Source of the DNA: Epinephelus fuscoguttatus
Lineage: Eukaryota > Chordata > Actinopteri > Perciformes > Serranidae
Direction of reading: 5' to 3'
Assembly (NCBI RefSeq): GCF_011397635.1
Contig: NC_064771.1
Coordinates: 13,889,379 to 13,953,378 of the forward strand
DNA length: 64,000 nucleotides
Position 1 is the stretch's first letter, and each line of letters opens with the position of its first letter. The translations under genes and the position numbers were made by a program. The notes beneath the pieces were generated by a model, which saw only the letters and a list, made by a program, of their open reading frames with translations, made no database searches and was not told the origin of the DNA. Below, piece after piece: positions 14,701-61,830 of the stretch.

Positions 14701-17700
14701 GTACAGTGCTTTTTTAATGGCATAGTAAACATGCCACCGCACAGTGCACAGGCAGTGGTTTGTATTACTTTTTAAATACACTAGCCCTGAGCCGTACTTG
14801 CATGGGACTAATATTAACAGGGGACCTTCCCTTGTCAGTGTTTCAAGTGCTGTTTTACTCACATTTATTGGCATTATACCCCAGATATATGATAGGAAAA
14901 TGTTCCGTACTGCATGCTGCTATGCATGACATCCATCGTATTCCAAAATTTAGCCCTTCTGATAGTTTACTCTTTCTGTGAATGGGTCTCCGTGCAGTGT
15001 AGCGAGACAAGCCTCCTGAATTTGCACCCAGAAAGATGTCAAAACTTTAATTCGTAATTGCCAGCGCCGCCTCTACAATTCTCAGCTAGGAAAGAGGCAG
15101 ATAGAAGGTGCGGAGAAAGCAAAAATTGTGCAAAAAAACTATGTTAAACCAATGTTTAAACGTGATATCTGCATTTGATGTCATAGGGAACATAAGTTGT
15201 GGTGGATTTTTTATTTGATAAATTACAGAAATGGCAGATTAAAACACGATTAAGATCACAGACGCTCTCTGCAATTATTACAAATTACTAGAGGTCCCCA
15301 GGTAATACATGTCCCATGCAAATAGGGCTGTAGGCTGCATCCCATGACATTGATTATGGTAAATTGTTTGCGCTAATAAACAGACACGTTGACAAGAGCT
15401 TTACTGTCAGCCTATTATGTATTTCAAGAACCTACATACACAAGAAAATATCAAATTATGGAGGGAAAAACTGTGACACCAAAAATGAAGACACTTCACC
15501 TCTGATTGACAAGTACTCGTTGCCTTCATTGGTCAGGTTGGTTAGGTTTAGTCAAGAGGAGTGAGATTGATAAGGGGTAGGGTGAGAATGTCAGGGTAAA
15601 CCAGTCAGAGACAGCGTAAGGCAGGTCATACCTTAATCATCCTAGGAAAAATAAATTTGCTTTCTGGGGATCCGAGCTCCCGTACCTCGCACGTATTTCG
15701 GACCCTGCTCTCAGGAGCGAAGTTATTATGTAACAAGATAGGACTGACTGTCTGGAGCTAAAGTCTCCTCGTCAGGCTTTTAATGTCAGCTCAGTAATAG
15801 CTGATATGTGCACTTCTGTTTGTAGGGTAATTTTCATCCTGTGTGCAAAATGCCTTTATACAATGACGTTATTGTATGTTGTCAGCTTAATGACTAGAAA
15901 GCAGGATATGAGTGATGTATCAGGGTTGGCAGAGGTTAGTATGTGGTTACCTTCTCTTCTTCCTTAGTTCTTCCCTATTTTCCCTTTTTATTTTTATATT
16001 CTACCTCATCTGGTTAATCTTCTGTCAGCTGTTTTCCCTCATTTTTCCTATAATGTTTTTCCTCTTTTTTTCTTCTTAACATTACAATCAACATGCCTCT
16101 GCTTTTCTTTTATAATTTTTTTTTTTGCTTTTACTTTTTCAGTCCTGCAGTTAAGGCTTCAGCAAAGGCGAACCCGGGAGCAGCTGGTGGACCAGGGCAT
16201 CATGCCACGTGAGTATCAACGCTGCCAGTTGTCCATCAGTCAGCAAAAAAAAGCTGATGTGGTGTGGGCGGGTGTATGATAACAAGCTGGGACCCTGATA
16301 GCTGAAATAATAAACATGTTTGTGCTTTTTAAAAAGAAATCCAGATCATCTGTCCTTAAAAAAATTGTGCTCAGACCTGATGAAAATGTGATGTGTTGCA
16401 GCTCTGAAGAGCCCGGCAGCTTTCCATGGACAGATTCGCAGCCTGGAGAGAGCCAGGGTAAGACACCCAGTTTGGAAATAAAGTGATAACTGTGGATTTG
16501 AGAAGTAATAATGCACTCCTGGACTGTTGTGTTGCTCAGTGCAGCAGAAGCAGAACAGGGCATGGAAGCTGAGATGGTTTATTGACTGTCCGTCTCTCTC
16601 TTCAGACTGAGAATTTCCTCAAGCACAAGATCCGCAGTCGTCCAGAGAGAGCAGAGCTGGTCAGGATGCACATCCTGCAAGGTACTGGTGATTCTCATAT
16701 GCACGTATTGTATTATCTAACGTTCCTTGTGGACCAGCATAAGAGAATTTAAATGGGCTACAGACACAGCAAACAAGAAATCTACAAGCTGACATCATTC
16801 AGTATGATATCAACTATGTGTGACATGTTTCAATCAATTAATCAAACTTTATTTATATAGTGCCTTTCATACATCAAAAATGCAACCCCAAAGCGCTTTC
16901 TCTGTTCTTCAGAGACTGGAGCAGAACCGTCACTACAGGCCACCCAGATGAAACTGAAAAGGGCCCGGCTGGCTGACAACCTCAACGAGAAGATTGCTCA
17001 GAGACCCGGCCCCATGGAGCTGGTGGAGAAAAACATCCTGCCGGTGGATTCCAGCGTTAAACAGGCCATCATCGGTGAGAGACAGGAAAACAGTGATCGT
17101 CAAGTGACTAATGTTGCCGTATTAGACAGCCAGTGCTTGTACAGCATTTCTGCTTTAATGGACACTGTTAGGAAGAGGTCATTTTTTGATGGGCCCTGCC
17201 GGGAATTGGAGAGGAATGATGATAAAAGATGTGTTTTACTGGCAAAGAGATAAAAACAATGTGAGTGGTTCAGTGCTGGAATTTTGTTGCTGTCATGTCT
17301 TAGTGGGTCAGGTGAATTACCCCAAAGTGCTGGATGAAGACAGCAGCGATGCCCTGTCCCCAGAGCAGCCGGCCAGCCAGGAATCTCAGAGCTCTGTCCC
17401 CTCTCCTGGGGAGAGCAGAGTGCCAGAGACGCCCTCTCCAGTCCCCGCACCACTACCACCACCAATACCCAACACCATACTGCAGGTCAGACACAGGGCT
17501 TGCTACACTGGTGTTTGTACATGCCTGCCTTAATAGCCCCAGGTTTTTCTAACTACATAACATTGTTACCATTATTATTGGACTCTGCAGTGTTTACAAG
17601 ACGTTAGAGGTTTGCTTTGCAGTTTTAAGTGTCGCTTTCCTGTGCTTCTTCAGGCCTTCCCAGTTGCCACACAAGTGATCTCGACCATTGAGCAGCCCGT

Positions 17701-20700
17701 GGGCCGCCCAGCTGTCACTCCGGCACCGCCAGTCACCACAGCTGCTCCTTCAAAACCAGGCCCAACACTGGTCAAAGTAAGGACTCCTTACTCTCTCTCT
17801 TTTTATTTGCTGACTCGTTTGAACGATTGATGTGCATGTGCATCTATGCTTTTTTATCTCCATCAGATACATGGCACATGTAATTGTGATGATACCGTTG
17901 TTGCTATAGTTGCATCTGTTTACATTAATGACACCAACAATTACTGATGACCTATCAGGGTCTTGAAGGGAAAGACTTTAACCACTAACCCTCATAATTC
18001 TGTTTCCAGGAGCAAATGGGCACATAAAAGCGAGGAGTAGTGGTACAAATAAAAGACTTAGGTTTCGCCTAAATATGATATCACCTCTTACTGTGATATC
18101 TGAATCCTGTGGAAAAAACTTTTCCCTGTTTCCTCCCACAACAGCAAAGCCAGCAGAAGTCTCCCTCAGAGAAGAGCCGCAGTAAGAAAGGCAAAGAGCC
18201 CAAGTCGAGGGTGAAGAAGCTCAAGTACCACCAGTATGTTCCCCCAGACCAGAAGCAGGAGGCCAGCGAAGCACCCATGGACTCTTCCTACGCCCGACTG
18301 CTGCAGCAACAGCAGCTGTTCCTGCAGCTGCAGATCCTCAGCCAGCAACAGCAGCACTACAACTACCAGACTATATTACCAGCACCACTCAAGTACGTAT
18401 ATGAAACATTAATAAGAAAACATTTGCAGTTGTATTGTTTTATTACTGCTTTGGCTTGCTTTCATAACCCTATGTAAAAAAACGCCTGAAAGCAGGATAC
18501 AGCAGATACTGCTGTTTTCAATGACCCAGAGGGCCATTAGCTAGTTTCCAATAACAACTCAGCGTCTAATCATATAATAACTAACAGGATGTTGTTTCAC
18601 CAGCAGCTGTTTACATAAATGTCCTCACAGCGCGGCATGGCAGAGCTCCCTTTGAACCGCTGCACTGAGGTTTGGATGACTGGCTTTGTTAGTGAGGCGC
18701 AGGGCTCAGGATGGATGTTCTGTTCATATTGGGAACACATTTCCTCTTTCTCTTTCCTGCCTTTCTCTCTCTTCAATCATCTCTCCAATAATACTCCTTT
18801 GTCCACCTCTTCCTCTTTTTTTGTTTCTTTTTTTGTCATACAGAAGTAGTGCAAATTATTTCCTTAAAAATAATAATGATTTTTGTGTTTCTCTCTCACT
18901 ACAGGCCCGTGGCCGAGGGTCAGAGCAGCAGCGCCGGCAGCCTGCCAACCTCCATCGTGGTGTCCTTGCCCACTGCACCTCCACCTCCCCCTGTGACTCC
19001 GGCTCCGGCTCGTCCAAACAACACGCTTTCGAACCGCAAGCCAGGAGTCTTGCCTGCCAACCTGGAGGAGATGAAGGTATTTGGAAACCCACTTGTACCA
19101 GCAAACCCCTCACCCATGTAGCCTGGAACAGCATGTCCCAGCAGCCTCGAAATCAAAGTAGCCTAAAGGGAGAAATTACCCTTTTATGGGCCCACTCAGC
19201 TGTAGAAGTGAACTGTGTCGCAGCCAGTACAAGAATGTTTTCATAGGAATCTGATAACTCCACAAAAGATCCAACAAGGTTCTGTTAAGTGTTGTTAAAA
19301 ATATTGATTTATTGATACACATCAGTTCTGAATATTTGAAATGTTTCAGTACTTATTTTCCACAGTATTGACACACCGCTCTCATCTCTCAAAAGAGCTG
19401 ACACACACGTACCGCAGTGCCCCCATAGCACCGCCTCCTCTCACTCTTACTTACTGCTAATGCACATCGAACATTTCCCACTGCTGCTGCTTCACAGTAA
19501 AAGCATTTAACATTCATAACACAGGTTGAAAGGGGTCACAGGAAATGCAGTGTGTTTGTCAGTGAGCAATCTTTCATCAAAAATGCATCTACAAAACAAC
19601 ACAACCATCATTTTCAGCATTTTTTGACAGTGGATCAGTTTGAAAAATTACAGGCAGTAATGGAAGAGTCATGAGCAGCCACAGTAAGTTGTTAGATGAG
19701 GAGCTGCAGGCGGCAGACAGGCTAAGTCCAACCTAGCGAGGTTATGGTTAAACCAACTTTCACTTTGACTGCGTCCTGCTGTCCACAGACTGTAGTGTAA
19801 ATTAAGTCCACGGTTGCTCACAGAATGATGGTGAAAAGTCAGTTATTCCCTGACGTCTTTATTAAGATGCCAGTAGTTTGTTTTGCTGCCCCCAGAACTC
19901 CCTGCTCAGAAAGCAGGAGAAACCACCAGCCTCGTTCTGTCCAACCATAACTAATCTAAGAGCACCAGTAAAGCTTGCTAATTAACTCATGAATTATATA
20001 TACGTTAACAGTATTTTGCTGTTTAATGCATGCAAACATGTTATAAGTTGTGGTTTTATTTTAGCTTATGTGCAGGACTATTTCTTTGCAGAGATCAGTG
20101 ACTTCCTTGAGACTTGGTGATGGTGGTTGCTCCACTAAAGTCACTCCAGGAAGTGCCTGGCCCAGTCAGAAATAGTCCTAGTATAAGGTCAAATTTTGTG
20201 GTGCTGGACCACAGATTGTTTTTAAAGTTTGGACTGAGCCTGGTTAGCTGTTTTCCCTGCTTCCAACTGGCTGTAGCCTCAGAAAAAAGGCCAACGTTTT
20301 GAACTTTTCCCTTAAAATCAGCTGCACTTCTCCTCTTGTACCCTTCCAAATTGATGATATGATAATATTTGTATTTTTCCAGGTTGCTGAGCTAAAACTG
20401 GAGCTAAAGTTGCGTGGCCTCCCTGTGTCGGGAACAAAGACTGATCTGATAGAAAGACTGAAGCCTTTCCAGGAAAACCACAGCACCTCTGCTCCTGCAA
20501 GCATTCCCGCCCCAGCCACTACCATCCTGTCCTCCGTACCCATGGAGGTCACCACCACTACCACCCCTGCTATAGTTCTTCCAGTCCAGCAGGTGGCTAA
20601 AGAGAGCACTAACCCCACACCCCCAGTCTCACCCATCCCCAATGATCGCTGCGCCCCCCAGCAGGATGTAGGCATGTCTGAGGCTCCTTCTGAGACACAA

Positions 20701-23584
20701 ACGGTGAGCTCTGGCTGGGCAGGTCCACAGTCCTCACCTCTCCCCTCTTTCCAAGTCCCAGAAGAAAAGGACAGGCGGCTCCATGAGAAGGAGCAGCAGA
20801 TAGTGGAGTTGATGAGGAAGCTGGAGCAGGAGCAGAAGCTGGTGGAGGAGCTGAAGATGCAGCTGGAGGTGGAGAAGAGAGGCCAAGGGGGCTCCCCTGC
20901 CGAGTCTGCCATGAACCCTGTTCCTACCGTCCTGAACTCAAATGTAGTGAAAGTGGAGGGTGCAGTGCTGTCAAACTGTTCATCCACTGGTGCTACAATC
21001 CCCAACTCCATCCTGGGCTCCCAGACTCTCTCCACCCTGCCAACTGTGGTCAAGCTGGAGGATGTGACGGTTTCTTCTGGCAAGCCGCTCCAGCTCCAGA
21101 CCCAAACCCAGCTCATCACCCAGATCCAGTCCCAAGCCCAGCCCCAAATAACTAACAACCCACAGCTGCTCTCCCAGTCACAGAGAAGTCCCAAACTCCA
21201 GCCACAGTCCCAACCAGCAGCCCCCAGCCTGCAGCAGTTCTTCATCAGCCACCGTGGTGGAGTGTCCCAGGTGCTGGGTCAGCCTCAGACCTTGTTAACC
21301 ACGACCGGCCAGGCTGGAACTCAGATCCTCCTCCCAGTCTCACTGCCCAATAACGCTACTGCAATCCAGCTGCCAAGCACCACTGTCAGCCTGCAGGTAA
21401 GTCTGGAACAAAGTAGAGTGACATCATGTGTTGTGACGTCTGTTAGAGAACTGTTTACCTGCCTCAGGGGCTTACAAATGAGAAAACTATGTGTAGACTC
21501 ACAGTTGTGTTCTTAAACTCCTTCCTCTTGTCATAGCCTGTCCTTCAGGCCACAAACCTGGTGCAGGCCTCAGTTCCTCAGCTGAAAACCACTACGATGG
21601 AGACGGCACCCAGCCAGCACTTAACCAACCAGAACCCATTGCTGCAGGTCAGTCCCGCCATGTGGTTAGTCGCATTTCTGTGAGGACACTGTGCCGCAGT
21701 GACTTTTACTAAACCCTTCATTTTGCCTTGGCTGAAACAATAATACTTATGTGTCACTGTCACATGACAGTAATGTGCCCTGTAGTGGTGGTAATTTGAG
21801 AGGCACTGTTGGAGCTGACGTGAGCACGGCTGACGACGATCCAATATCATTCCTATTAAAGGAATGCTTCACCCACAAAATAATTATTTGTATATTAATT
21901 GCTCACCCTGAGTTTTATTGAATTCACTATGAAATGGTAAATTAAGTAAATTTACTGTACTTAAAAATAAAGTGGGGTTTTTTTGGTTTTTTTTGAAAGT
22001 CACTTGCAGTCCATTCTGAATGAACCCGCGACCAATTTTTGGACCGTGACCCACCAGCTGAGAACCGCTGCTTTAATCTATTTTTTACTAACTAATATAT
22101 TGTTGGACAGATGCCCCACTTGCTGTATCTTCAGTTCCTCCTTTAAAACGACTCTTAAGATTTGACTCTGTCTCAACAGACTCTGACTGTGTGCAATAAC
22201 ACTACTGGAGTGGAGAACCAGAACAGGCCTGAGATGAACACTCAGTGTTTCCTGAGACGCTCCCCAGATAACAGGGTCTCACCACGGGCTTCACCCAACC
22301 ACCACATCTCCAACGGACCCCTCAATAAGGTATTAGTGCTGAGTTATTAACATTTGGTTCAAGCTGTCCTAGTTGCTTCTGTTGACGGTTCTTAATCCTG
22401 CCTGACTGGATTTTCTCCGTCTCTGTCTTATTACTCCAGTCTCCCTCTCCTCAGCCCACCTTCATCCTTCAGCCCACCTCCATTGTTGCTCAGCCTCCCA
22501 AGACAAGAGAGCCTCCCCGCTACGAGGAGGCCATCAAACAGAGCCGCAACATGCACGTCAACAGTGTTTCACAGGTAAGACACACACACACACACACACA
22601 CCCAGCACCGCTGTATCCTTCAGAATACAAAACAGCACGAACACGTGAGAGACTATTTTCGGTGTTCCACCCTTGAGAAATTGTTTTGCTTTTGGCGAAC
22701 AGCCTCGAGTCTCTTAACCTCGTTGACTGTCTTCTCAGGTTCCCACGGCAACCAGCCAGCAGATGGATGACTTGTTCGACATTCTCATAGAGAGTGGAGG
22801 TAAGGAGGTGTACAAACCCACAGCATTCTGTTAGTATGAGTGAGTTAAAAACAATCTAGTCTCAGGCAGACCGCTGTGTAGGCTGCAGCGTTTTCAGTTT
22901 GGTGACAATACAGCTTATGTTACGTCACATCTTACAGTTGAACGTGCAATGTGTAGTGCAAATAAGGGGGTTTTTGTTGATCAGTGGTATGGAAAACATT
23001 ATTATAACAATTCCAAGACACCTTCATTGGTTGAACTTTCATAATAATCTATGTTTTTATCCCCTCCTCCAGAAATCACTCCCTTCATCCAGCAGGACTC
23101 TCCCGTGTCTCTCACTAAGACCATCCCGGTCACAGCAAACATCTCCACCCTGCCAGTCAACACCGCCCTCTCCAGGCCACCTCCACAGGTCCAGGTGGCT
23201 CCCCCGGCCACCCTGAGCCCGGCCGTCGGCCCCAGCCTGCCCAGCCTCTCCTCCCTCGCCACAGACAATCAGCTCGAGGCCTTCCTGGAGGGCACGCTGG
23301 CCGAAACAGCGCCAGCATCAGACCCACGCACACGGGGCCTGATGGAGGAGCTGCAGGCCCAGCTGATGGAGCAGCAGCCCTACTCACCCATGGACACATC
23401 TGAGCTGTCCTTCTGTGATTCTTCCTCACCTTCCTCCCTCAACATGGGCCTGTCTGACCCAGGCCTGGACAATATGGAGTGGCTGGACCTCACCATGCCG
23501 CCAGGTCCGGCTGGGGCGCTCACGCCACTGGGGATCCCGACGGACTTCCTGGATACACAGGACCTGCAGCTTCACTGGGATTGA
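8567..23584 (+). CDS. mrtfb: Myocardin-related transcription factor B (MRTF-B/MKL2), SRF co-activator, 15 coding exons
   Basis: Coding exons: 8567-8723, 16143-16208, 16402-16457, 16606-16681, 16913-17074, 17304-17485, 17654-17776, 18145-18392, 18905-19076, 20383-21396, 21537-21647, 22180-22329, 22440-22574, 22739-22799, 23073-23584. All junctions are GT-AG, all phases agree, and the product is 1074 residues, close to mammalian MRTF-B. Domain order: RPEL1 about 51-78, RPEL2 about 94-118, RPEL3 about 135-162, basic region about 284-302, glutamine-rich 325-345, SAP about 410-445, coiled coil about 541-581, PPxY 864-867, acidic C-terminal activation domain. In this family the RPEL motifs bind G-actin and hold the protein in the cytoplasm; Rho-driven actin polymerisation releases it to the nucleus to co-activate SRF. 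MRTF-B rather than MRTF-A is supported by ILPVDSSVK, HYNYQTILPAP, ELKLRGLPVSGTK and the DNMEWLD C-terminal motif. The start is the first ATG in exon 8479-8723, followed at once by a second in-frame ATG. Alternative upstream first exons cannot be excluded. Confidence 0.95.
9040..10178. mobile_element. Dispersed fish repeat of the 'acttaagtaaaagta' type (MITE-like), probably disrupted
   Basis: The left end (tagattctgtacttcagtag ... ttacttaagtaaaagtattt, about 9042-9111) and the right end (tttgtacttaagtacagtacttgagtaaag ... attccaccactgg, about 10126-10178) match the two ends of a repeat common in fish introns. The DNA between is unrelated AT-rich sequence, which suggests a later insertion. There is no coding capacity. 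Recognition is from the end motifs only. Confidence 0.45.
11791..12778. repeat. Inverted pair of a MITE-like fish repeat (ends TTTAAGGAA ... TTCCTTTAA)
   Basis: The first ~210 bases (from 11791: gcattttgggaatatgctt, then gctttcttgctgag, agtaacaaaatccacc, taccagcacct) reappear as a diverged reverse complement in 12540-12778, which ends in aatgtcaaactattccttt. The outer ends therefore form long inverted repeats around a ~530-bp unrelated centre. No transposase frame is present. The structure fits a non-autonomous DNA transposon or two opposed copies. Confidence 0.6.
16143..16208 (+). CDS. mrtfb: mrtfb coding exon 2 (RPEL1)
   Basis: It encodes VLQLRLQQRRTREQLVDQGIMP, completing RPEL1 with the end of exon 1. 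The acceptor is the end of a long T-rich tract (ctttttcag|tcctg) and the donor is CCAC|GTGAGT. RPEL1 has the degenerate form usual for the first MRTF repeat: RTREQLVDQGIMP keeps the ...L...GI.P end. Confidence 0.93.
16402..16457 (+). CDS. mrtfb: mrtfb coding exon 3 (RPEL1-RPEL2 spacer)
   Basis: A 56-bp exon encoding LKSPAAFHGQIRSLERAR, the conserved linker between the first two actin-binding repeats. Flanked by gttgcag and GTAAGA; phase 1 in, phase 0 out. Confidence 0.93.
16606..16681 (+). CDS. mrtfb: mrtfb coding exon 4 (RPEL2)
   Basis: It encodes the second RPEL motif with the consensus core KIRSRPERAELVRMHIL. The acceptor is ctctcttcag and the donor GTACTG (phase 1). Confidence 0.94.
16831..16899. 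mobile_element. SINE/repeat tail fragment ending 13 bases before an mrtfb acceptor
   Basis: The stretch 'caatcaattaatcaaacttt', then atttatatagtgcctttcat, then caaagcgcttt is the end motif of a very common fish retroposed repeat. Only ~70 bp remain. The exon-5 acceptor AG is at 16911-16912, so the end of the fragment abuts the polypyrimidine tract of that splice site. Confidence 0.6.
16913..17074 (+). CDS. mrtfb: mrtfb coding exon 5 (RPEL3)
   Basis: It encodes the third RPEL motif (EKIAQRPGPMELVEKNILP) preceded by the basic helix MKLKRARLADNLN. Acceptor ttcttcag, donor ATCG|GTGAGA (phase 1). Confidence 0.95.
17304..17485 (+). CDS. mrtfb: mrtfb coding exon 6 (acidic/serine-rich linker)
   Basis: It begins VGQVNYPKVLDEDSSDALSP and continues as a Ser/Pro-rich linker (EQPASQESQ, then a proline-rich tail). 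This block is shared by MRTF-A and MRTF-B just after RPEL3. Acceptor tgtcttag, donor CTGCAG|GTCAGA. Confidence 0.92.
17654..17776 (+). CDS. mrtfb: mrtfb coding exon 7 (proline-rich linker)
   Basis: A 41-codon, in-phase exon ending PSKPGPTLVK, matching the segment that precedes the basic region in MRTF-B. An exact multiple of three, so it could be skipped without a frameshift. Confidence 0.9.
18145..18392 (+). CDS. mrtfb: mrtfb coding exon 8 (basic region and glutamine-rich region)
   Basis: It encodes the lysine-rich block (EKSRSKKGKEPKSRVKKLKY), the YHQYVPPDQK motif and the glutamine-rich stretch YARLLQQQQLFLQLQILSQ. In this family the basic region contributes to nuclear import and SRF contact, and the Q-rich region also takes part in SRF binding. 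Acceptor cacaacag, donor CTCAA|GTACGT (phase 2). Confidence 0.94.
18905..19076 (+). CDS. mrtfb: mrtfb coding exon 9 (linker before SAP)
   Basis: It encodes a Ser/Pro-rich linker ending RKPGVLPANLEEMK, the conserved lead-in to the SAP domain. The exon ends in phase 0 at ATGAAG|GTATTT. Confidence 0.92.
19077..20382 (+). other. mrtfb intron with a repeat fragment
   Basis: This 1.3-kb intron carries, at about 19960-20110, a diverged copy of the internal part of the repeat listed at 11791-12778 (shared pattern ttatgtgcaggact ... cagtgacttcct). No exon was seen. It splits the SAP domain lead-in from the domain body. Confidence 0.6.
20383..21396 (+). CDS. mrtfb: mrtfb coding exon 10 (SAP domain, coiled coil, Q-rich segment)
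   Basis: The largest exon (338 codons). It opens with the SAP domain (VAELKLELKLRGLPVSGTK, then DLIERLKPFQ), a helix-turn-helix DNA-binding fold. Residues about 541-581 form the leucine-zipper coiled coil (EKEQQIVELMRKLEQEQKLV, then EELKMQLEVEKRGQ) used for MRTF/myocardin dimerisation. A second glutamine-rich tract lies at about 20-22% of exon length from the 3' end (TQTQLITQIQSQAQPQ). A sumoylation-type VKxE motif (VVKVEGA, VVKLEDV) occurs twice, similar to the VKxE motifs of mammalian MRTFs. Confidence 0.95.
21537..21647 (+). CDS. mrtfb: mrtfb coding exon 11
   Basis: A 37-codon symmetric exon (phase 0-0) of low-complexity Ser/Thr/Gln sequence between the coiled coil and the activation domain. 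Acceptor gtcatag, donor CTGCAG|GTCAGT. Identification rests on splice sites, phase and position; the sequence is weakly conserved in the family. Confidence 0.8.
21860..22090. mobile_element. Repeat fragments in mrtfb intron 11
   Basis: 'attaaaggaatgcttcaccc' with following 'aattgctcaccctgagtttt' and 'gaccgtgacccaccagctga' are motifs of dispersed fish repeats. The fragments are short and non-coding and are bounded approximately. Confidence 0.4.
22180..22329 (+). CDS. mrtfb: mrtfb coding exon 12
   Basis: A 50-codon symmetric exon. The NGPLNK ending parallels the 'QNGPNTPNK' segment of mammalian MRTF-B just before the PPxY motif. Acceptor tctcaacag, donor AATAAG|GTATTA. Confidence 0.82.
22440..22574 (+). 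CDS. mrtfb: mrtfb coding exon 13 (PPxY motif)
   Basis: It encodes KTREPPRYEEAIKQ, the conserved PPxYEEA motif of the MRTF C-terminal half. Acceptor ttactccag, donor TCACAG|GTAAGA. The intron begins with a CA microsatellite (22580-22601) only five bases after the GT. Confidence 0.92.
22580..22601 (+). repeat. (CA)n microsatellite directly behind an mrtfb donor site
   Basis: About 11 CA units immediately after the GTAAGA of exon 13. Likely polymorphic. Confidence 0.9.
22739..22799 (+). CDS. mrtfb: mrtfb coding exon 14 (QQMDDLFDILI motif)
   Basis: It encodes TSQQMDDLFDILIESG, an acidic/hydrophobic motif invariant in MRTF-A and MRTF-B activation domains. Acceptor cttctcag, donor GGAG|GTAAGG (phase 1). 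Confidence 0.94.
23073..23584 (+). CDS. mrtfb: mrtfb last coding exon (C-terminal activation domain)
   Basis: It encodes EITPFIQQDSP, the SRPPPQVQVAPP segment, SPMDTSEL, DNMEWLDLTMP and the terminal FLDTQDLQLHWD before TGA at 23582-23584. All are hallmark segments of the MRTF-B activation domain. The exon is noticeably GC-richer than the surrounding introns and UTR. Confidence 0.95.
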
Positions 23585-27564: not shown

Positions 27565-28135
27565 CAAATTTGGCACAAACATTTGCTTAGAGTGAAGGAT
27601 AATTTCATTAACATTTGGTGTTCGAAGGTCACTGTGACCTTGCCACTGTCTCGTTTTGTAAATGCGATTTCTCAAGAAGGACTTGAAGAAATTTCCTCAA
27701 ATATGGCACAAACGTCCACTTTAAGTCAGGATTAACTAAGTAGAATTTGGTGTTCAAAGGTCACTGTGACTTTATGTCTGTCTTATTTTGAGAATAAGAT
27801 ATCTCAAGAAGGCCTTGAAGAAATTTCCTCAAATAAGACACAAACGTCCACTTGGATTCAAGACTGAACTGATTTGAATTTAGTGGTCAAACGTCACTGT
27901 GACCTCACTGTTTTTGGCCATAACTCAAGAGCTCATCTGCTAATTATGACAAAATGTCACACAAAAATCTAACAGGTTGTAATGATGAAGTGATGTCATT
28001 TTATAGCCAAAAGGTCAATTTCACTGTGACATCACAATGTTTTGCAAAAACATTTTTATATGTCTCCGAAGAATGGGAGACATTTGGTCAGATACTGAAT
28101 TGGTGAAACTAATCTTGGGTGTCCACCTTTAAACT
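27438..28135. repeat. Dispersed fish repeat with internal ~100-bp tandem units
   Basis: It starts with ccacgccagcaatagacgct and repeats a unit containing 'aagaaggacttgaagaaatt', 'tggcacaaacgtccact' and 'ttcaaaggtcactgtgac' about three times (near 27675, 27800 and 27890). A 24-base poly-T run sits near 27541-27564. This family is scattered through percomorph genomes. It lies between the convergent 3' ends of mrtfb and the LITAF-domain gene. Confidence 0.7.
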
Positions 28136-28434
28136 GTGCTGACCGTATAGATCTTCTGTGCTGCCACATCCAAGCATTCATGTTTTCACACACCTGACTG
28201 GTTCACGGAGGCATAAAACCTGAGAGGCTGTAATTCGAGTTTTATATAATGTCACAAACAACATATGAAACAACTGGCAGGAGCACAGAAACAGAAGAAT
28301 TGAGTAAGCACTACATTTGAAGTGTGTTGCAGCTTACAGTGTATCAAAACAGTTCTTTGTTGCGTTATAGGCCATGTTTGCATATCAACAGCGATTTGTT
28401 TCCACTTTCCTCTCAGATAACATATTCCCAGAGT

Positions 28435-28440
28435 TTTATT
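28435..28440 (-). promoter_or_regulatory. Candidate poly(A) signal of the LITAF-domain gene
   Basis: TTTATT on the plus strand is AATAAA on the minus strand, about 480 bases after the stop codon at 28921. It would give a 3' UTR of ~0.5 kb ending short of the convergent mrtfb end. No competing signal is closer. Confidence 0.5.
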
Positions 28441-28920
28441 TCAATATACTTGACCAAGGAAACCAGACACAAAGTTCAGTAGACTGTTGACAAAGCATGA
28501 TACTGTGTTATAATAAACAGGACTTGATCATTTTAAATGGAGGGATTAGTTTGGAGTAATTTGTATCTGAAACATTGACTACTGGAGATATTAATAAAGT
28601 GAGGAGTGTTTTGAATGGCAGTGTTTGCATTTGCGAACTCAGCTCAAATCCATGTTATGCAGATATTCTGGTAGGTAAAGTTTCACAGTGTGCAAGTCAA
28701 ACATGCATTAAGAACAGTAGGTTTTCCTCAAGTTATCTGAGCCTTTGTGCCATTTGCACTGACAGCGTAGTCGACTCCAGGCACATTGCTGAGATCAGTT
28801 GTGGAGTCAAACAACTGAGTCCCAGACAGCTCCATGACCACAGGAGTTGGTCACTAAAGCACATAGGCCGTGGATCGTACTGTACAAAGCACAGTAGCTG
28901 TTTAAATAGCAGCCTTTAAG

Positions 28921-29029
28921 TCAAAACGGCTGTTGGATGTGAATGTTTTCCTGGCACCGGGGACACTGGTGGTGGACGTTCTTTGTACGCCTCATAAAGA
29001 AAGGGATTAAACAGCAGCCTGCAACACAC
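28921..29029 (-). CDS. LITAF-domain gene, last coding exon
   Basis: Read on the minus strand from 29029 after the acceptor ttcacag. It encodes CVAGCCLIPFFMRR, then VHHQCPRCQ, ending IQQPF and TGA at 28923-28921. The H.CPxC zinc half-site is the diagnostic second half of the LITAF domain. Confidence 0.85.
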
Positions 29030-32000
29030 CTGTGAAGGAAGGAAGAAAGAATAGGGATGTGAAAGATCAAAGTTCAAAGTACAAGTAAGTGTGTTTTACA
29101 AAATGTCCACCCACTTCGTTAAGACTACTTTTAACTCTGCAGTCTGTCAGGGTAAAAATTTCGACAGTAAATCAGGTCCAAACAGACGTACCCTGCCAAG
29201 GTGCACAGGCAGCAAATCATCCACGCAGCCTCGCCCACTTTGCTGCTGGTTTCTGTGAGGACGACCTCTTCACAGAATGGACACTTGGTGACCATTGGTG
29301 TCCAACCCAGACTGTCAACTAGCCCACGAGATAGACAGAGCACACTGTTACTGTCTCAAAAGATATTCAAATACAGACAAATGCATGACTGCTGGGGTGA
29401 AATCACGATCCTGCCCTCTGTTATACACCCCCAATAATCAGAAAGTATCAAATTGTCACTTCCAGTAATGTATTGATCATAATAAAGACTGGGCTGGAGC
29501 CTATCCCAGCTGACATCGGGCGAGAGGCAGGGTACACCCTGGACAAGTCGCCAGACTATCACAGGGCTGACACATAGAGACAAACAACCATTCACGCTCA
29601 CATTCACACCTACGGACAATTTAGAGTTATCAATTAACCTAGTCCCCAATCTGCATGTCTTTGGACTGTGGGAGGAAGCCAGAGTGCCCGGAGAGAACCC
29701 ACGCTGACACGGGGAGAACATGCAAACTCCACACAGAAGGGCTCCCACGCCCGGGATCGAACCGGCAACCCTCTTGTGGTGAGGCAAGAGTGCTAACCAC
29801 CACACACGTCACGTAAAAATAAAAACATCATAGTAAAGCATGTCATGAAAAGTTGACTGAGAATGTCATACTATACCATGTCATAATTTTTTTTAAAAAC
29901 ATCATAGTATAGCATGTTGTGAAAAAAATAAAAAGTCAAACTTATGTCATGAAAAGTTGAAAAAAAGTCAAACTTTAGAATGCCACAAAAAATTGAATAA
30001 AAAAGTCATACAATAGTTTGTCATAACAATTTAATATAAATATTATAGTATGGGATGACATAAAGATAATATATAAAAACATCATAGTATAGGATGTCAT
30101 GAAAAAAATACAAAATTCACTATAGTATGTCATAGAATGTAATATAAATTGTCATAGAATAGCATGTCATACAAAAAAATTAATAAAAAAGTCATACTAA
30201 AGTATGTCATAAAAAAATAAAAATGTCATAGAATAGCATGTCATGAAAAATGTGATAAAACAATGTCATAGTGGAGCATATCACAAACAAAGGTCAAAAG
30301 AACAGCAAAGTATAGCATGACATAAAAATATTATAGTATAGTATGACATAAGAATATTATAGTATAGTATGAAAAAATATAGTATAGTATGACATAAGAA
30401 TATTATAGTATAGTATGAAAAAATATAGCGCAGCATGACATAAGAATATTATAGTATAGTAAGAAAAAATACAGCACAGCATGACATAAGAATATTATAG
30501 TATAGTATGAAAAAATATAGCACAGCATGACATAAGGATATTATAGTATAGTATGAAAAAATATAGCACAGCATGACATAAGAATATTATAGTATAGTAT
30601 GAAAAAATACAGCACAGCATGACATAAGAATATTATAGTATAGTATGAAAAAATATAGCACAGCATGACATAAGAATATTAAAGTATAGTATGAAAAAAT
30701 ATAGCACAGCATGACATAAGAATATTATAGTATAGTATGAAAAAATACAGCACAGCATGACATAAGAATATTATAGTATAGTATGAAAAAATACAGCACA
30801 GCATGACATAAGAATATTATAGTATAGTATGAAAAAATATAGCACAGCATGACATAAAAATGTTATAGGATAGTATGACAAAAATATCACAGTATAGTGT
30901 GTCATAAAGACATAGTATAGAAGAGTATATACTATGACTTGATTTTCAATTTTGAAAAACATACTATAGTATGATGTTTTTATGCAATTTTTGACGACAT
31001 ACTATAGTATGACTTTTTTTGCAAATTTGAACGACATACTATACTATGATTTTTTTGCAATTTTGAATGTCATACTATATACTATGAAGTTTTTATGCAA
31101 TTTTCAATGACATACTATAGTATGATGTTTTTATGCAATTTTTGACGACATACTATACTATGACTTTTTTTGCAAATTTGAACGACATACTATACTATGA
31201 TTTTTTTTTGCAATTTTAAAGGACATACTATACTATGACTTTTTTTGCAAATTTGAACGACATACTATACAATGATTTTTTTTTTGCAGTTTTGAAGGAC
31301 ATACTATACTATGGCTTTTTGCAAATTTGAACGACATACTATACTATAATTTTTTTTTTTGCAGTTTTGAAGGACGTACTATACCATGAATTTTTTTGCA
31401 ATTTTGAATGTCATACTATATACTATGACGTTTTTATGCAATTTTGAAGGATATACCATACCATGACTTTTTTTTTTGCAATTTTGAATGTCATACTATA
31501 TACTATGAAGTTTTTATGCAATTTTGAAGGACATACTATAGTATGATGTTTTTATGCAATTTTGAAGGATATACTATACCATGACTTTTTTTTTTGCAAT
31601 TTTGAATGTCATACTATATACTATGACGTTTTTATGCAATTTTAAATGACATACTATGGTATGATTTTTTTATGCAATTTTTGACGACATACTATACTGT
31701 GATTTTTTTTCTTGCAATTTTGAAGGACATATTATACTATGACTTTTTTTTGCAAATTTGAACGACATACTATACTATGATATTTTTTTGCAATTTTGAA
31801 GGACATACTATAGTATGATGTTTTTATGCAATTTTGAAGGACATACTATACTATGATGTTTTTATGCAATTTTGAAGGACATACTGTACTATCAGTTTTT
31901 TTGCAATTTCGAACGACATACTATGCTGTGAATTTTTTTGAAATTTTGAAGGACATACTACACTATGACCTTTTCTTGCAATTTTCAATGACATACTATA

Positions 32001-35000
32001 CTATGATGCTTTTTGCAGATTTTAACAACATACTATACTATGATTTTTTTTCAGTTTTGAAGGACATACTGTACTATGACTTTTTTTTGCAATTTTGAAT
32101 GACATACTATACTGTGACGTTTTTATGCAATTTTTAACAACACACTATAGTATGATGTTTTTATGCAATTTTGAAGGACATACTATACTATGACCTTTTT
32201 TTTGCAATTTTGAATGACATACTATACTATGACGTTTTTATGCAATTTTGAACGACATACTATACTATGACTTTTTTTGCAATTTTGAACGACATACTAT
32301 ATTGTGACGTTTTCATGCAATTTTGAACGACATACTATGCTGTGAATTTTTTTTGCAATTTTGAACGACATACTATACTAAGACCTTTTTTTTGCAATTT
32401 TGAATGACATACCATACTATGACGTTTTTATGCAATTTTGAACGACATACTATAGTATGATGTTTTCATGCAATTTTGAACGACATACTATGCTGTGAAT
32501 TTTTTTTTGCAATTTTGAACGACATACTATACTAAGACCTTTTTTTTGCAATTTTGAAGGACATACTATACTATGACTTTTTTTTGCAATTTTGAACGAC
32601 ATACTGTACTATGACCTTTTTTTTGCAATTTTGAATGACATACTATATTGTGACGTTTTTATGCAATTTTTAACAACACACTATAGTATGATGTTTTTAT
32701 GCAATTTTGAACGACATACTATACTATGATTTTTTTTTTGCAATTTTGAAGGACATACTATACTATGACCTTTTTTTGCAATTTTTAACAACACACTACT
32801 GTACTATGACTTTTTTTTTGCAATTTTGAATGACATACTATACTGTGATGTTTTTATGCAATTTTTAACAACACACTATAGTATGATGTTTTTATGCAAT
32901 TTTGAAGGACATACTATACTATGATTTTTTTTTGCAATTTTGAACGACATACTATAGTATGATGTTTTCGTGCAATTTTGAAGGACATACTATACTATGA
33001 TTTTTTTTGCAATTTTGAACGACATACTATACTATGACTTTTTTTCAATTTTGAAGGACATACTATACTATGACGTTTTTTGAAAATTTGAACGACATAC
33101 TATACTATGATTTTTTTTGAATTTTGAAGGACATACTATACTATGATTTTTTTTTTGCAATTTTGAACGACATACTATACTATGACTTTTTTTCAATTTT
33201 GAACGACATACTATACTATGACGTTTTTTGCAAATTTGAACGACATACTATACTATGATTTTTTTTGAATTTTGAAGGACATGCTATACTATGACATTTT
33301 TTTGCAATTTTGAAGGACATACTATACTGACTTTTTTTTGCAAATTTGAATGACATACTGTACTATGATTTTTTTTGCAATTTTGAAGGACATGCTATAC
33401 TATGACGTTTTTATGCAATTTTGAACAACATACTATAGTATGATGTTTTCATGCAATTTTGAAGGACATACTATACTATGATTTTTTTTTGCAATTTTGA
33501 AGGACATACTATACTATGACGTTTTTTGCAAATTTGAACGACATACTATACTATGATTTTTTTGCAATTTTGAAGGACATACTATACTATGACTTTTTTT
33601 GCAAATTTGAATGACATACTGTACTATGATTTTTTTTGCAATTTTGAAGGACATGCTATACTATGACTTTTTTTGCAATTTTGAAGGACATGCTATACTA
33701 TGACGTTTTTATGCAATTTTGAACAACATACTATAGTATGATGTTTTCATGCAATTTTGAAGAACATAATATACTATGATTTTTTTTTGCAATTTTGAAG
33801 GACATACTATACTATGATTTTTTTTTTGCAATTTTGAAGGACATACTATACTATGATTTTTTTTGCAATTTTGAAGGACATACTATACTATGACGTTCTT
33901 ATGCCATTTTTGACGACATACTATACTATGATTTTTTTTTGCAATTTTGAAGGACATACTATACTATGATTTTTTTTGCAATTTTGAAGGACATGCTATA
34001 CTATGACGTTTTTTGCAATTTTGAAGGACATACTATACTATGACGTTTTTATGCAATTTTGAACAACATACTATAGTATGATGTTTTCATGCAATTTTGA
34101 AGGACATACTATACTATGACATTTTTTTGCAATTTTGAAGGACATACTATACTATGACTTTTTTTGCAAATTTGAATGACATACTGTACTATGATTTTTT
34201 TTGCAATTTTGAAGGACATACTATATACTATGACGTTTTTATGCAATTTTGAACAACATACTATAGTATGATGTTTTCATGCAATTTTGAAGGACATACT
34301 ATACTATGATTTTTTTTTGCAATTTTGAAGGACATACTATACTATGATTTTTTTTGCAATTTTGAAGGACATGCTATACTATGATTTTTTTTGCAATTTT
34401 GAAGGACATACTATACTATGACGTTTTTTGCAAATTTGAACGACATACTATACTATGATTTTTTTTTAATTTTGAAGGACATACTATACTATGACTTTTT
34501 TTGCAATTTTGAAGGACATGCTATACTATGACGTTTTTATGCAATTTTGAACAACATACTATAGTATGATGTTTTCATGCAATTTTGAAGGACATACTAT
34601 ACTATGATTTTTTTTGCAATTTTGAAGGACATACTATACTATGATTTTTTTTTGCAATTTTGAAGGACATACTATACTATGATTTTTTTTGCAATTTTGA
34701 AGGACATACTATACTATGATTTTTTTTGCAATTTTGAAGGACATGCTATACTATGACGTTTTTATGCAATTTTGAACAACATACTATAGTATGATGTTTT
34801 CATGCAATTTTGAAGGACATACTATACTATGATTTTTTTTTGCAATTTTGAAGGACATACTATACTATGATTTTTTTTGCAATTTTGAAGGACATGCTAT
34901 ACTATGACGTTTTTATGCAATTTTGAACAACATACTATAGTATGATGTTTTCATGCAATTTTGAAGGACATACTATACTATGATTTTTTTTGCAATTTTG

Positions 35001-38000
35001 AAGGACATACTATACTATGATTTTTTTGCAATTTTGAAGGACATACTATACTATGACGTTTTTATGCAATTTTGAACAACATACTATAGTATGATGTTTT
35101 CATGCAATTTTGAAGGACATACTATACTATGATTTTTTTTTGCAATTTTGAAGGACATACTATACTATGATTTTTTTTTGCAATTTTGAAGGACATACTA
35201 TACTATGACGTTTTTATGCAATTTTGAACAACATACTATAGTATGATGTTTTCATGCAATTTTGAACAACATACTATACTATGATTTTTTTTTGCAATTT
35301 TGAAGGACATACTATACTATGATTTTTTTTGCAATTTTGAAGGACATGCTATACTATGACGTTTTTTGCAATTTTGAAGGACATACTATAGTATGTTGTT
35401 TTAATTGAATTTTGAAGGAACTACTATACTATTAAATTTTTTTGCAATTTTGAAGGACATACTATACTATGATTTTTTTTTTTCAATTTTGAAGGACATA
35501 CTATACTATGTGGTTTTTTTGCAATTTTGTATGACATGATATTCTATGTATTTTTTTTTCAATTTTGAACAACATACTATAGTATGATGTTTTCATGCAA
35601 TTTTGAAGAACATAATATACTATGATTTTTTTTTTGCAATTTTGAAGGACATGCTATACTATGACGTTTTTATGCAATTTTGAACAACATACTATAGTAT
35701 GATGTTTTCATGCAATTTTGAAGGACATACTATACTATGATTTTTTTTGCAATTTTGAAGGACATACTATACTATGATTTTTTTTTAATTTTGAAGGACA
35801 TACTATACTATGACATTTTTTTGCAATTTTGAAGGACATACTATACTATGACGTTCTTATGCCATTTTTGACAACATACTATACTATGACTTTTTTTTGC
35901 AATTTTGAAGGACATACTATACTATGATTTTTTTTGCAATTTTTATCAACATACTATAGTATGATGTTTTTATGCAATTTTGAAGGACATACTGTACTAT
36001 CAGTTTTTTTGCAGTTTTGAACGACATACTATACTAAGACCTTTTTTTTGCAATTTTGAAGGACATACTATACTATGATTTTTTTTGCAATTTTGAAGGA
36101 CATACTATACTATGATTTTTTTTTGCAATTTTGAAGGACATACTATACTATGACATTTTTTTGCAATTTTGAAGGACATACTATACTATGATTTTTTTTG
36201 CAATTTTGAAGGACATACTATACTATGATTTTTTTTGCAATTTTGAAGGACATACTATACTATGATTTTTTTTGCAATTTTGAATGACATACTATACTAT
36301 GACGTTTTTATGCAATTTTTAACAACATATTATAGTATGAGGTTTTTATGCAATTTTGAACGACATACTATAGTGTGATGTTTTTATGCAATTTTGAAAG
36401 ACATACTATACTATAACTTTTTTTTAAAAAAATTTGAACAACATACTGTACTATGAATTTTTTTTTGCAATTTTGAAGGACATACTATACTATGACGTTT
36501 TTTGCAAATTTGAACGACATACTATACTATGATTTTTTTTTAATTTTGAAGGACATACTATACTATGACTTTTTTTGCAAATTTGAATGACATACTGTAC
36601 TATGATTTTTTTTGCAATTTTGAAGGACATGCTATACTATGACGTTTTTATGCAATTTTGAACAACATACTATACTATGATTTTTTTTTTAATTTTGAAG
36701 GACATACTATACTATGACGTTCTTATGCCATTTTTGACAACATACTATACTATGACTTTTTTTCAGTTTTGAAGGACATACTATACTATGACATTTTTTT
36801 GCAATTTTGAAGGACATACTATACTATGACGTTTTTTGCAAATTTGAACGACATACTATTCTATGATTTTTTTTTAATTTTGAAGGACATAGTATACTGT
36901 GACATTTTTTGCAATTTTGAAGGACATACTATACTATGATTTTTTTTTAATTTTGAAGGACATACTATACTATGACATTTTTTTTGCAATTTTGAAGGAC
37001 ATACTATACTATGATTTTTTTTGCAATTTTGAAGGACATACTATACTATCATTTTTTTGCAATTTTGAAGGACATACTATACTATGACTTTTTTTTGCAA
37101 ATTTGAATGACATGCTATACTATGACTTTTTTATGCAATTTTGAAGGACATACTATACTATGACTTTTTTATGCAATTTTGAACGACATACTATACTATG
37201 ACTTTTTTATGCAATTTTGAAGGACATACTATACTATGACTTTTTTATGCAATTTTGAAGGACATGCTATACTATGACTTTTTTTGCAAATTTGAACGAC
37301 ATGCTATACTATGACTTTTTTTATGCAATTTTGAAGGACATACTATACTATGACTTTTTTTGCAAATTTGAACGACATGCTATACTATGACTTTTTTTAT
37401 GCAATTTTGAAGGACATACTATACTATGACTTTTTTTTGCAAATTTGAACGACATGCTATACTATGACGTTTTTATGCAATTTTGAATGACATACTATAT
37501 CACGACTTTTTTTGCAATTTTGAATGACATACTATACCACAATGTTTTTATGCCATTTTCAATGACATACTATACTATGACGTTTTTATGCAATTTTGAA
37601 GGACATACTATACTATGATGTTGTTATGTCATGCAGTAGGCATGGGAACTACTGGAACTTTGAGAGTGGTGCCAATCAGGTTATTACGGCCCTGCATGAC
37701 TGATACTGTAATTAAGTATGTAGCTTACCTGGAACAACTGGGCCTGTTGGTGTTTCAGTCACAGGCCTAGCTTTTACTCTCTTCTCTGCTGTCCTGTCCT
37801 CCTGCTGGGGAGGTGGCAGAATGTAGATCCCCCCACGGGGTGTCTCAGTTTTATAAAGAGCGGGACCTGCATCCTGTTGACCTGATTTAAAACATGAGCA
37901 GTGTCATTATAGATGCATTAGAAACATCTTCATATAAAAAAGGTTGTTCTCACACAGTAAGCAGGGTTGCCATTACTGAGCTACTGACATGTTAAGTTAC

Positions 38001-39125
38001 TTAAAGCTGCTTTAAAGTGATAGGACTCTTCAAGTAAGCTACATTTTACAGTGATGAAAAGTCATAATTTTAAACTCTAATATTCAGTGAAAAAAGTGAA
38101 GACATGCCTTCATTCGCTCTGAGCTTTGAGCGTTTTCCCTTTTTCTCCACCTCCTCCTTTTTAACCACCAGTTCCTCCAGTTCCCTCTGGATGGCCTCCA
38201 GCTCACACAGTCGATCACTGTCCTCACAGGTCACTGACGACACAGCATGGGAGAGCAAGTTTACATCGCTGAAACAGACCTATACCATGCTGTACCTGTT
38301 ACCTCTTTTTAATCATCAGAATGTAGCCAAGAGGTGTTAGGCAAGTCAATATACAACTGAAAAATGAATAATACTTTTAGTTAACTAAAATGAAATAGCC
38401 TATGAATAATAAATACAAAGCGTTCATTTTACTCTTCTGTTTATCTGCCTTCCTTTGACTCAATATGTTTTTTTATCCCTGGTTTTTGTTTCTCTTAGGT
38501 CTTAGCTCACTTTTGATATTTTATTTTATGTTGTTGTGTGTGTGTGTGTGTGTGTGTGTGTGGCCAGGGGAGATTTTGGCACCTCTCCTCCTGCCTATTG
38601 TTGGGCCACTGAATAACAGACACACCAAAAGTACAAGGCAATTCATCAGCAATCTAGCAATGATTAAAAGAATTGTATTTTTTAAAAAAAATGTGGCACA
38701 CAAAATGAGTGTCTTCTAATTTGTACTTTTTTTTCCATGTGAAGTGTTTCACACTCGTGATATAGAATGTTTTTAAATTAAATGTTTAAATGCAAAATGT
38801 ATTATGTGTATGTAATTGGGAAGCACTTATTTGAGTAGACTGACTCACTTTCCTCCGTACTCTCGTCACCACTGTCCCCTGCCTTCTTCCCGAGGCGCTG
38901 CATCTTCAGCAGAAGGACACGTCTGTTGTGAAGCTGCTTTATGCGAAACTCGATGGCCTGCGCCGGGGGTCTGCTCCCTGGCTCAAAGGTCCACTGGTTG
39001 AATTCAGGCTGGGAATAAGATTCAGAGTAATGCTGCTCTTGTTCTTGGTCCAAACCGACGCCTGTGTTCAGCTCGATGCTCTGTGTCTGCCTGTAAGACA
39101 GAGGATGCACCTCACCCTGTGACAT
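28921..39125 (-). CDS. LITAF-domain protein with N-terminal coiled-coil region, five coding exons
   Basis: Minus-strand coding exons: 39125-38849, 38233-38108, 37881-37729, 29318-29192, 29029-28921. Phases agree at all four junctions and give 263 residues plus a stop. Residues ~55-126 contain two charged helical segments (AIEFRIKQLHNRRVLLLKMQ; DRLCELEAIQRELEELVVKK) expected to form coiled coil. Residues ~140-185 are proline/charged with GGIYILPPP. Residues ~190-254 are a LITAF domain: CPFC at 198-201, a hydrophobic Cys-rich segment (AAWMICCLCTLAGCVAGCCL), then HHQCPRC at 247-253. In this family the two Cys pairs bind one zinc ion and the hydrophobic helix embeds in the cytosolic face of endosomal/lysosomal membranes. 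LITAF and CDIP1 have PPxY-rich N-termini; this protein does not, so I give no symbol. Intron 2 is GC-AG; intron 3 contains the satellite. A possible upstream non-coding exon would splice at 39139. Joining the exons across the satellite is inferred from phase and domain logic. Confidence 0.72.
29192..29318 (-). CDS. LITAF-domain gene, exon 4 (first zinc half-site and membrane segment)
   Basis: It encodes DSLGWTPMVTKCPFCEEVV and AAWMICCLCTLAG, splitting the LITAF domain inside the hydrophobic segment. The donor is GG|GTACGT (phase 2). Acceptor: GGGCTAG at 29321-29319 gives the phase needed by exon 3; another AG at 29313-29312 would not. Reading the exon alone from an internal Met would lose the N-terminus, so the joined model is preferred. 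Confidence 0.8.
29480..29805 (-). mobile_element. tRNA-derived SINE in intron 3 of the LITAF-domain gene
   Basis: On the minus strand the element starts with a pol III A-box-like TGGTTAGCACTCTTGCC (29799-29783) and a B box GGTTCGATCCC (29763-29753). It then has the body found in countless fish loci (ctttggactgtgggaggaag and aactccacacagaagg on the plus strand) and ends near 29480 at the 'ctggagcctatcccagctga' tail. It lies in sense with the host gene, just outside the satellite. Confidence 0.75.
29815..30930. repeat. AT satellite, left arm (A-rich orientation)
   Basis: Diverged monomers of the pattern aaaaagtcatagtatagcatgtcat run from the SINE edge to about 30.3 kb, followed by the homogeneous 46-bp sub-array (separate entry). 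The consensus is the reverse complement of the monomer in the right arm, so the two arms face each other. No gene is present; a 63-codon minus frame at 30771-30962 is repeat read-through. Confidence 0.85.
30300..30860. repeat. Homogenised 46-bp tandem sub-array
   Basis: The unit 'cagcatgacataagaatatt' + 'atagtatagtatgaaaaaat' + 'atagca' recurs at exact 46-bp steps: starts at 30431, 30477, 30523 and so on to about 30845 (ten copies, plus two variant copies before). Copies differ at only a few positions, mainly tatagca versus tacagca, which implies recent amplification compared with the diverged monomers around it. Confidence 0.9.
30931..37630. repeat. AT satellite, right arm (T-rich orientation), 37-38-bp monomer
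   Basis: About 175-180 copies of a monomer of the form gacatactatactatga + T-run (6-10) + gcaattttgaag. Length varies mainly by the T-run. Variants include a 'gtttttatgcaattttgaac' type and a palindromic-core type (catactatagtatg). From about 33.4 to 35.7 kb a two-monomer module (gacgtttttatgcaa ... gatgttttcatgcaa) returns at multiples of the monomer, forming higher-order repeats. The array ends at 'gatgttgttatgtcatgcag' near 37635. It has no coding function. Confidence 0.93.
37729..37881 (-). CDS. LITAF-domain gene, exon 3 (proline-rich linker)
   Basis: Minus strand, after acceptor taaatcag at 37882. Frame 3 alone is open and encodes LYKTETPRGGIYILPPPQQE and a Lys/Thr/Pro tail ending GPVVP. 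The donor is CCAG|GTAAGC (phase 1). The other two frames stop, which supports this reading. Confidence 0.72.
38108..38233 (-). CDS. LITAF-domain gene, exon 2 (coiled coil)
   Basis: It encodes DRLCELEAIQRELEELVVKK followed by EEVEKKGKRSKLRANE, a heptad-like amphipathic helix. Acceptor cgtcag at 38234 and phase-1 end at GAAG|GCATGT, a GC-type donor. A GT donor four bases further on would break the frame into exon 3. Confidence 0.72.
38535..38562 (+). repeat. (GT)n microsatellite in intron 1 of the LITAF-domain gene
   Basis: Fourteen uninterrupted GT units between exons 1 and 2 of the minus-strand gene. Confidence 0.95.
38849..39125 (-). CDS. LITAF-domain gene, exon 1 (start codon)
   Basis: Minus-strand ATG at 39125-39123, encoding MSQGEVHPLSYRQ ... 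then AIEFRIKQLHNRRVLLLKMQ and an acidic end GDSGDESTEE. Donor GAAA|GTGAGT (phase 1). An acceptor-like tgtttcag ends at 39140, 14 bases upstream of the ATG, suggesting a preceding non-coding exon. Confidence 0.7.
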
Positions 39126-39139
39126 CCTGCTTTAAAGAC

Positions 39140-40130: not shown

Positions 40131-41758
<1,628 letters not shown>

Positions 41759-61497: not shown

Positions 61498-61821
61498 TCA
61501 TCTCTCAGCCTCCATCGCTACACTAGCCTTCTGCTCAGCGCCTGCGTGAGGGTTCACGCCCGTGGGCCAGGCGGGGCAGGGCTGCGTGGGGGGCTGCCCC
61601 TGAGTCCAGAGTCCCTGTGGAGGTTGCGGCACATTAGGTACGTTTGGTGAGAACCCCCAGTTGCCGACCTGGGGGGGCGGGGGGGAGGTGGCCATGGAGG
61701 CGGCCATGGGACTGCCGCCGCTGCCGCTGTTGAAGCTCTCGGACGCCTTCAGCCTGGAGAACATGGTTAACGCGTCCGGGAAGTTGGGGGGCGTCGCTGG
61801 TGTGTTGGCTGGGGTGCACAT
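61498..61821 (-). CDS. ubald1: UBA-like domain-containing protein 1 (FAM100A), last coding exon
   Basis: Read on the minus strand from 61821 after the acceptor cttcatccccag, the exon is open for 107 codons to TGA at 61500-61498. It begins MCTPANTPATPPNFPDAL and continues MFSRLKASESF, MAAS, a proline/tryptophan-rich stretch and the terminal AMEAER. This is the C-terminal half of UBALD1, which in vertebrates follows an N-terminal UBA-like domain (the MDELRHQVMINQ region) encoded by earlier exons. Those exons are not in the remaining 2.2 kb, so the gene is cut by the right edge. The KASESF and AMEAER segments favour UBALD1 over UBALD2. The cellular role of the family is poorly defined. The ATG at the exon start is internal to the protein, not the initiator. 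Confidence 0.9.
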   Translation of the reverse strand: MCTPANTPATPPNFPDALTMFSRLKASESFNSGSGGSPMAASMATSPPPPQVGNWGFSPNVPNVPQPPQGLWTQGQPPTQPCPAWPTGVNPHAGAEQKASVAMEAER

Positions 61822-61830
61822 CTGGGGATG

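Follow-up and report, generated by a model that had tools for sequence, protein, structure and literature searches.

Gene model on the minus strand of the C20 window

The window analysed here is a stretch of 64,000 nucleotides (C20:13889379-13953378) from a genome that was searched over 1.05 Gb in 26 contigs, and it holds, next to an MRTF gene, what is very likely one five-exon LITAF-type gene whose front end is predicted from sequence to be helical and in part coiled-coil-like. The features on which the following rests are listed with their positions in the window.

38849..39125, minus strand: coding exon 1, with the ATG, a start rich in Q, E and S, and a predicted helix at residues 55-83
38108..38233, minus strand: coding exon 2, a coiled-coil-like helix, ending in the GC donor AAG/GCATGT
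37729..37881, minus strand: coding exon 3, with the GGIYILPPP linker and the phase-1 donor CAG/GTAAGC
29319..37728, minus strand: intron 3, 8410 bp long and largely satellite
30928..37622, no strand assigned: 38-bp satellite array of 177 copies in intron 3, the same family occurring on many other contigs
29192..29318, minus strand: coding exon 4, with the first zinc knuckle (CPFC) and the first half of the hydrophobic anchor, acceptor in phase 1 and donor in phase 2
28921..29029 including the stop, minus strand: coding exon 5, with the second half of the anchor and the HHQCPRC knuckle
28435..28440, minus strand: AATAAA, a possible poly(A) signal some 480 bp past the stop of the LITAF gene and the sole one in 27900-28920
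15968..23581, plus strand: MRTF gene, tail to tail with the LITAF gene, with RPEL Pfam and MKL1 chain matches
61501..61890, minus strand: last exon of a UBALD/FAM100-type gene, located by tblastn with a UBALD1 sequence

The initial annotation had proposed five minus-strand exons with fitting splice phases, the third and fourth lying 8.4 kb apart across satellite DNA. Both points are borne out, as the joined exons give a 792-nt coding sequence of 263 amino acids with its stop at the end, the phases after exons 1-4 are 1, 1, 1 and 2, and the array at 30928-37622 lies within the 8410 bp of intron 3. The frame used is the sole stop-free sense frame in exons 1-4, while in exon 5 two sense frames are open, and the GC content of the exons (0.50-0.55) stands against that of the introns (0.27-0.38). 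Codon scoring, trained on a small set consisting of pieces of the neighbouring MRTF gene, places the used frame best of six in exons 1-3, best of the three sense frames only in exon 4, and not best in exon 5; despite these weaker scores exons 4 and 5 both carry the Pfam match described below. As the open frame of exon 1 starts two codons ahead of the ATG, no longer in-frame start is hidden just upstream. Intron 2 opens with GC, a detail absent from the initial annotation; GC donors are a known minor type of splice site. On its coding strand intron 3 has no AATAAA and eight copies of ATTAAA, seven of them inside the 38-bp array.

The satellite itself is dispersed: a 301-bp piece of the array has 393 or more matches, spread over many contigs. 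We take the satellite for a passenger of intron 3 that lies outside the logic of the gene. Beside it in the same intron are a 46-bp array (12 copies, 95% matches) and a diverged 37-bp array, the two arrays together occupying 30332-30887 and 29894-30271, and outside the arrays the segment at 29480-29815 (minus strand) resembles what we take to be a common fish interspersed repeat. Elsewhere in the window a 132-bp tandem repeat (2.2 copies, 27613-27905) lies between the MRTF and LITAF genes, and a Tc1/Sleeping Beauty-type transposase is found on the plus strand at 40413-41536, where HTH_Tnp_Tc3_2 matches at 1.9e-25 in 40413-41303 and a second overlapping open frame extends to 41536.

The LITAF domain and its relatives in the genome

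A C-terminal LITAF domain ending in HHQCPRC had been recognised from the letters, and it is confirmed by the Pfam family zf-LITAF-like (PF10601), which matches residues 192-259 with 67.3 bits (E 1.3e-18) against a curated cut-off of 23.8 bits. The layout is CPFC ... MICCLCTLAGCVAGCCLIPFFM ... HQCPRC, in which MICCLCTLAGCVAGCCLIPFFM is the hydrophobic stretch; this is the hallmark of the family, a hydrophobic segment (about 22 residues) set between CxxC and HxCxxC. The zinc residues and the anchor are intact, and every exon is open and free of frameshifts. The domain is split by a phase-2 intron (donor AGG/GTACGT, acceptor TCACAG/G), as in other LITAF loci of this genome. No PDB chain matched at E up to 10, NCBIfam gave a single sub-threshold match (16.3 bits vs a cut-off of 36), and six peptide patterns run against viral contigs picked out 9 stretches, none of which was confirmed as a relative.

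We count no fewer than 12 LITAF loci in the genome, obtained by grouping 23 exon-level matches by hand: the window gene on C20, five loci on C3 and six on C19. Eleven of the 12 have, at the same position in the domain, a phase-2 donor that satisfies a simple consensus rule; the twelfth, a C19 locus to which we return below, has a weak phase-2 donor (GG/GTATAA) that is used in its model. The phase-2 acceptor of the last exon passes in 10/12 loci, the exceptions being L011 and L013. Each of the 12 loci has one or more phase-1 acceptor candidates ahead of its first domain exon under a lenient rule applied without a shuffled control, with further candidates at seven loci, five of these also in other phases. 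If this reflects the family, an upstream coding exon ending in phase 1 is to be expected before exon 4 of the window gene, and exon 3 does end in phase 1, as exon 4 requires.

In a domain tree of 14 rows, two of them human domains and the others the 12 loci, L021 groups with human CDIP1 (100/99) and L011 with human LITAF (88/88), and the window gene groups with neither. Two further observations concern the other loci: L010 (C3:30568281-30568603) has a stop codon inside its LITAF domain, lies about 10 kb from the open copy L009 and is a possible pseudogene, and L017 and L018 (C19:31772580-31785584) have near-identical domain exons, likely the result of a recent tandem duplication.

The N-terminal region

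The initial annotation had described about 185 residues of charged coiled coil ahead of the domain, which overstates the case: the coiled-coil-like part comes to about 21 residues, or some three heptads, within one of two predicted helices. Single-sequence AlphaFold2 predictions give one helix for exon 1 alone (residues 55-83, mean pLDDT 65) and one for exon 2 alone (at about residues 99-133, pLDDT 82). A simple custom heptad score peaks at residues 103-124, a value reached by 0/300 whole-sequence shuffles and 30/2000 within-segment shuffles.

The proposal that this is a divergent LITAF architecture holds, as PPxY and P[ST]AP are absent and the predicted helices stand in their place; PPxY, P[ST]AP and PPYP have no match anywhere in the 263-residue protein. 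In a scan for PPxY or P[ST]AP across the genome, several PPxY motifs occur in a proline-rich stretch upstream of the domain at 2/12 loci (L013 and L021, the latter being cdip1), a single candidate at 3/12 (L009, L014 and L016), and none at 7/12, including the window gene and the C19 locus, which makes a weak contrast given that 1.6-8.4 kb of upstream sequence was scanned for each of the eleven other loci. As a protein query, exons 1-3 matched no other place in the genome with E up to 10, and the genome protein search, an indirect look in this respect, yielded no retrocopy showing the spliced order. A Pfam match of the N-terminus to DUF3381 (13 bits vs a cut-off of 25) was judged a chance coiled-coil match and set aside. 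In the literature, covered through titles and the openings of abstracts and with most subscription journals outside that coverage, we met no coiled-coil LITAF protein in fish.

A compact paralogue on C19

What weighs most for a single gene is a second gene of the same genome, L020 (C19:18766355-18768730, minus strand), which carries helical exons and LITAF domain close together. This locus, modelled as is the window gene, has five coding exons with phases 1, 1, 1 and 2 in a span of 2.4 kb; exons 1 and 2 are helix-like, exon 3 encodes the linker KIFYVEPPP in the place of GGIYILPPP, and exons 4-5 encode the LITAF domain. Its intron 3 is 1.4 kb long, and with Tandem Repeats Finder the locus yields no array. 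The claim that the five window exons form one gene is therefore upheld by a paralogue in which, on modelled exons, both halves are adjacent, in the same order and with identical phases, and without a tandem array. The initial annotation would have counted orthologues with the halves as separate genes against its model; the comparison was made with this paralogue, and there the halves are together.

At the level of sequence the resemblance is more modest. The C19 protein has 204 amino acids, compared with 263, and an N-terminal part of 119 residues, compared with 185. The domain of the window gene is identical to that of the C19 copy at 31/71 positions, the highest of the 13 rows compared and one residue above L014 and L018 (30/71 each), and the C19 domain is identical to the human LITAF domain at 32/72; the two fish genes pair in the domain tree with low support (63/28). 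For the N-terminal parts the joint similarity score was reached by 5/2000 shuffles. Taken singly, neither exon 1 against exon 1 (447/1000 shuffles) nor exon 3 against exon 3 (151/1000) is significant, and window exon 2 resembles C19 exon 1 (2/1000) better than C19 exon 2 (20/1000). In genome searches at E up to 10 neither protein retrieves the N-terminal exons of the other. Both do have a heptad segment in exon 2, that of the C19 copy peaking at residues 63-84 (9/300 and 14/2000 shuffles), with a near-equal score at residues 7-28 in its exon 1. The evidence for homology of the two N-termini is weak, and charged helical segments can look alike by composition alone. What carries the case for a duplicate is therefore position, the number of coding exons, their phases and their order, more than the letters of the sequence.

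Neighbourhood of the two genes

The window MRTF gene is presumably of the MKL2 type, judging by its third RPEL motif, and the C19 copy likewise lies tail to tail with a second MRTF gene, to which the window MRTF exons show identities of 76% for the third RPEL exon, 64% for the basic region and 46% for the C-terminus. The neighbours identified next on C19 are presumably SNRNP25, represented by the sole PF18036 match in the genome, and cdip1 (L021), some 11 kb away from the C19 copy. We considered whether SNRNP25 ends in exons 1-3 of the C19 gene and dropped the idea, since what we take for the SNRNP25 tail (GIRNRDEV...) lies upstream of them at L020 9759-9896 and the PF18036 match farther upstream than that tail. 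The notion that the window gene is cdip1 itself, suggested by its UBALD neighbour, was likewise abandoned once cdip1 was found on C19. UBALD matches occur at two genome sites, the window and C19:8.955 Mb. Globins are found on C20 at 14.11-14.13 Mb, 0.16-0.18 Mb beyond the window. The globin clusters of C19, at 21.4 and 30.1 Mb, are distant from the LITAF gene at 18.77 Mb, which counts against the duplicate reading.

For comparison with published teleost maps we take f100a to be UBALD1. One such account places mkl2b, snrnp25, polr3k, cdip1 and mgrn1b, among others, in the aanat2 region (PMC4730296), and a second places shisa9, mkl2, f100a, rhbdf1 and globins in the aanat2' paralogon (PMC4259306). 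The C19 and C20 regions fit these paralogons in the genes looked at (mkl2, snrnp25, cdip1, UBALD and globins). This fit makes duplication of one older gene, together with the genome, the best reading of the LITAF pair.

Discussion

Teleost genome duplication is the simplest reading of the window gene and the C19 gene, and it would make the layout with a helical N-terminus older than that duplication. The strongest competitor makes the window gene a duplicate, on C20, of cdip1 or of another LITAF paralogue, with helical exons that it gained independently of the C19 gene. The weak N-terminal similarity, the low tree support with a lead of one residue in domain identity, and the presence of cdip1 some 11 kb from the C19 copy all speak for such a history; on the other side, the window domain is identical to that of cdip1 at 26/71 positions, below the 31/71 shared with the C19 copy, the two models agree in coding-exon number and phases, and both genes sit tail to tail with MRTF, so that we regard independent gain as unlikely.

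A decaying or unexpressed gene copy is less probable still. It would account for the poor codon score in exons 4-5, the non-standard GC donor and the satellite-filled intron, and is opposed by exons that are all open and free of frameshifts and by zinc residues and an anchor that are intact, in contrast to the C3 paralogue L010 with its stop in the domain. Least of all do we credit a split into two adjacent genes, with exons 1-3 as a small coiled-coil gene and exons 4-5 as a LITAF gene of its own. The distance of 8.4 kb across satellite DNA between the halves and the lack of any match to exons 1-3 in the rest of the genome (E up to 10) lend it some appeal, but the C19 copy shows the complete order with every phase in a span of 2.4 kb, exon 4 starts in phase 1 in a family with a phase-1 acceptor candidate in 12/12 loci (lenient rule), and intron 3 is without an AATAAA.

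The reading that we prefer, taken jointly and with a probability of about 0.78, is that of one gene for a 263-residue LITAF-domain protein with a helix-paired N-terminus, which originated before the duplication beside MKL2 and received its satellite later. In terms of history, the gene would have arisen before the teleost genome duplication beside an ancestral MKL2 gene, both duplicates would have been kept, on C19 and C20, and the dispersed 38-bp satellite would later have inflated intron 3 of the C20 copy.

As to mechanism, LITAF and CDIP1 are described as monotopic endosomal proteins with both ends cytosolic that support curvature and tubule scission, and LITAF as binding zinc (PMC5095921, PMC5142333, PMC8353527). 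By analogy with these accounts, CPFC and HQCPRC of the window protein would form a zinc ribbon, as published for LITAF/CDIP1, that inserts the intervening hydrophobic stretch into the cytosolic leaflet of endosomal membranes and leaves both ends in the cytosol. Because the zinc residues and the anchor are intact, the same membrane attachment is likely here. An N-terminus without PPxY or P[ST]AP would not recruit NEDD4-type ligases or TSG101 by those motifs, and from their absence we infer, with helix and heptad predictions as the basis, that the N-terminal helices may pair or oligomerise, with themselves or with another LITAF-family protein. Such pairing could concentrate the curvature-supporting anchors.

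A broader proposal is that these genes belong to a third LITAF subfamily of vertebrates that predates the teleost genome duplication. In it a coiled-coil module for oligomerisation would take the place of the N-terminus that recruits NEDD4/ESCRT, and mammals would have lost the subfamily with the break-up of the MKL2-CDIP1 neighbourhood. We put this forward tentatively and at somewhat less than even odds. If true, it would offer a natural separation of membrane curvature from ubiquitin-ligase recruitment. A natural relative in which the anchor is kept and PPxY/PSAP are replaced by helices would help to assign function to the anchor as opposed to recruitment. The window gene is also a case in which satellite fills an intron while the reading frame stays intact.

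Among known systems CDIP1 (locus L021) resembles the window gene in that a phase-2 intron interrupts its LITAF domain at the corresponding position, and is unlike it in its proline-rich N-terminus with PPxY motifs and in a domain identical at 26/71 positions. LITAF/SIMPLE shares the C-terminal zinc ribbon and hydrophobic anchor and differs in its proline-rich N-terminus with PSAP and PPxY (PMC5095921, PMC5142333); the human LITAF domain is identical to that of the window gene at 23/71 positions. Some moth LITAFs and the LITAF homologues of aquatic-animal viruses lack PPxY, as does the window protein, so that its absence alone is not new, yet these are characterised as short (PMC13113599), whereas the window protein has a long, predicted-helical N-terminus.
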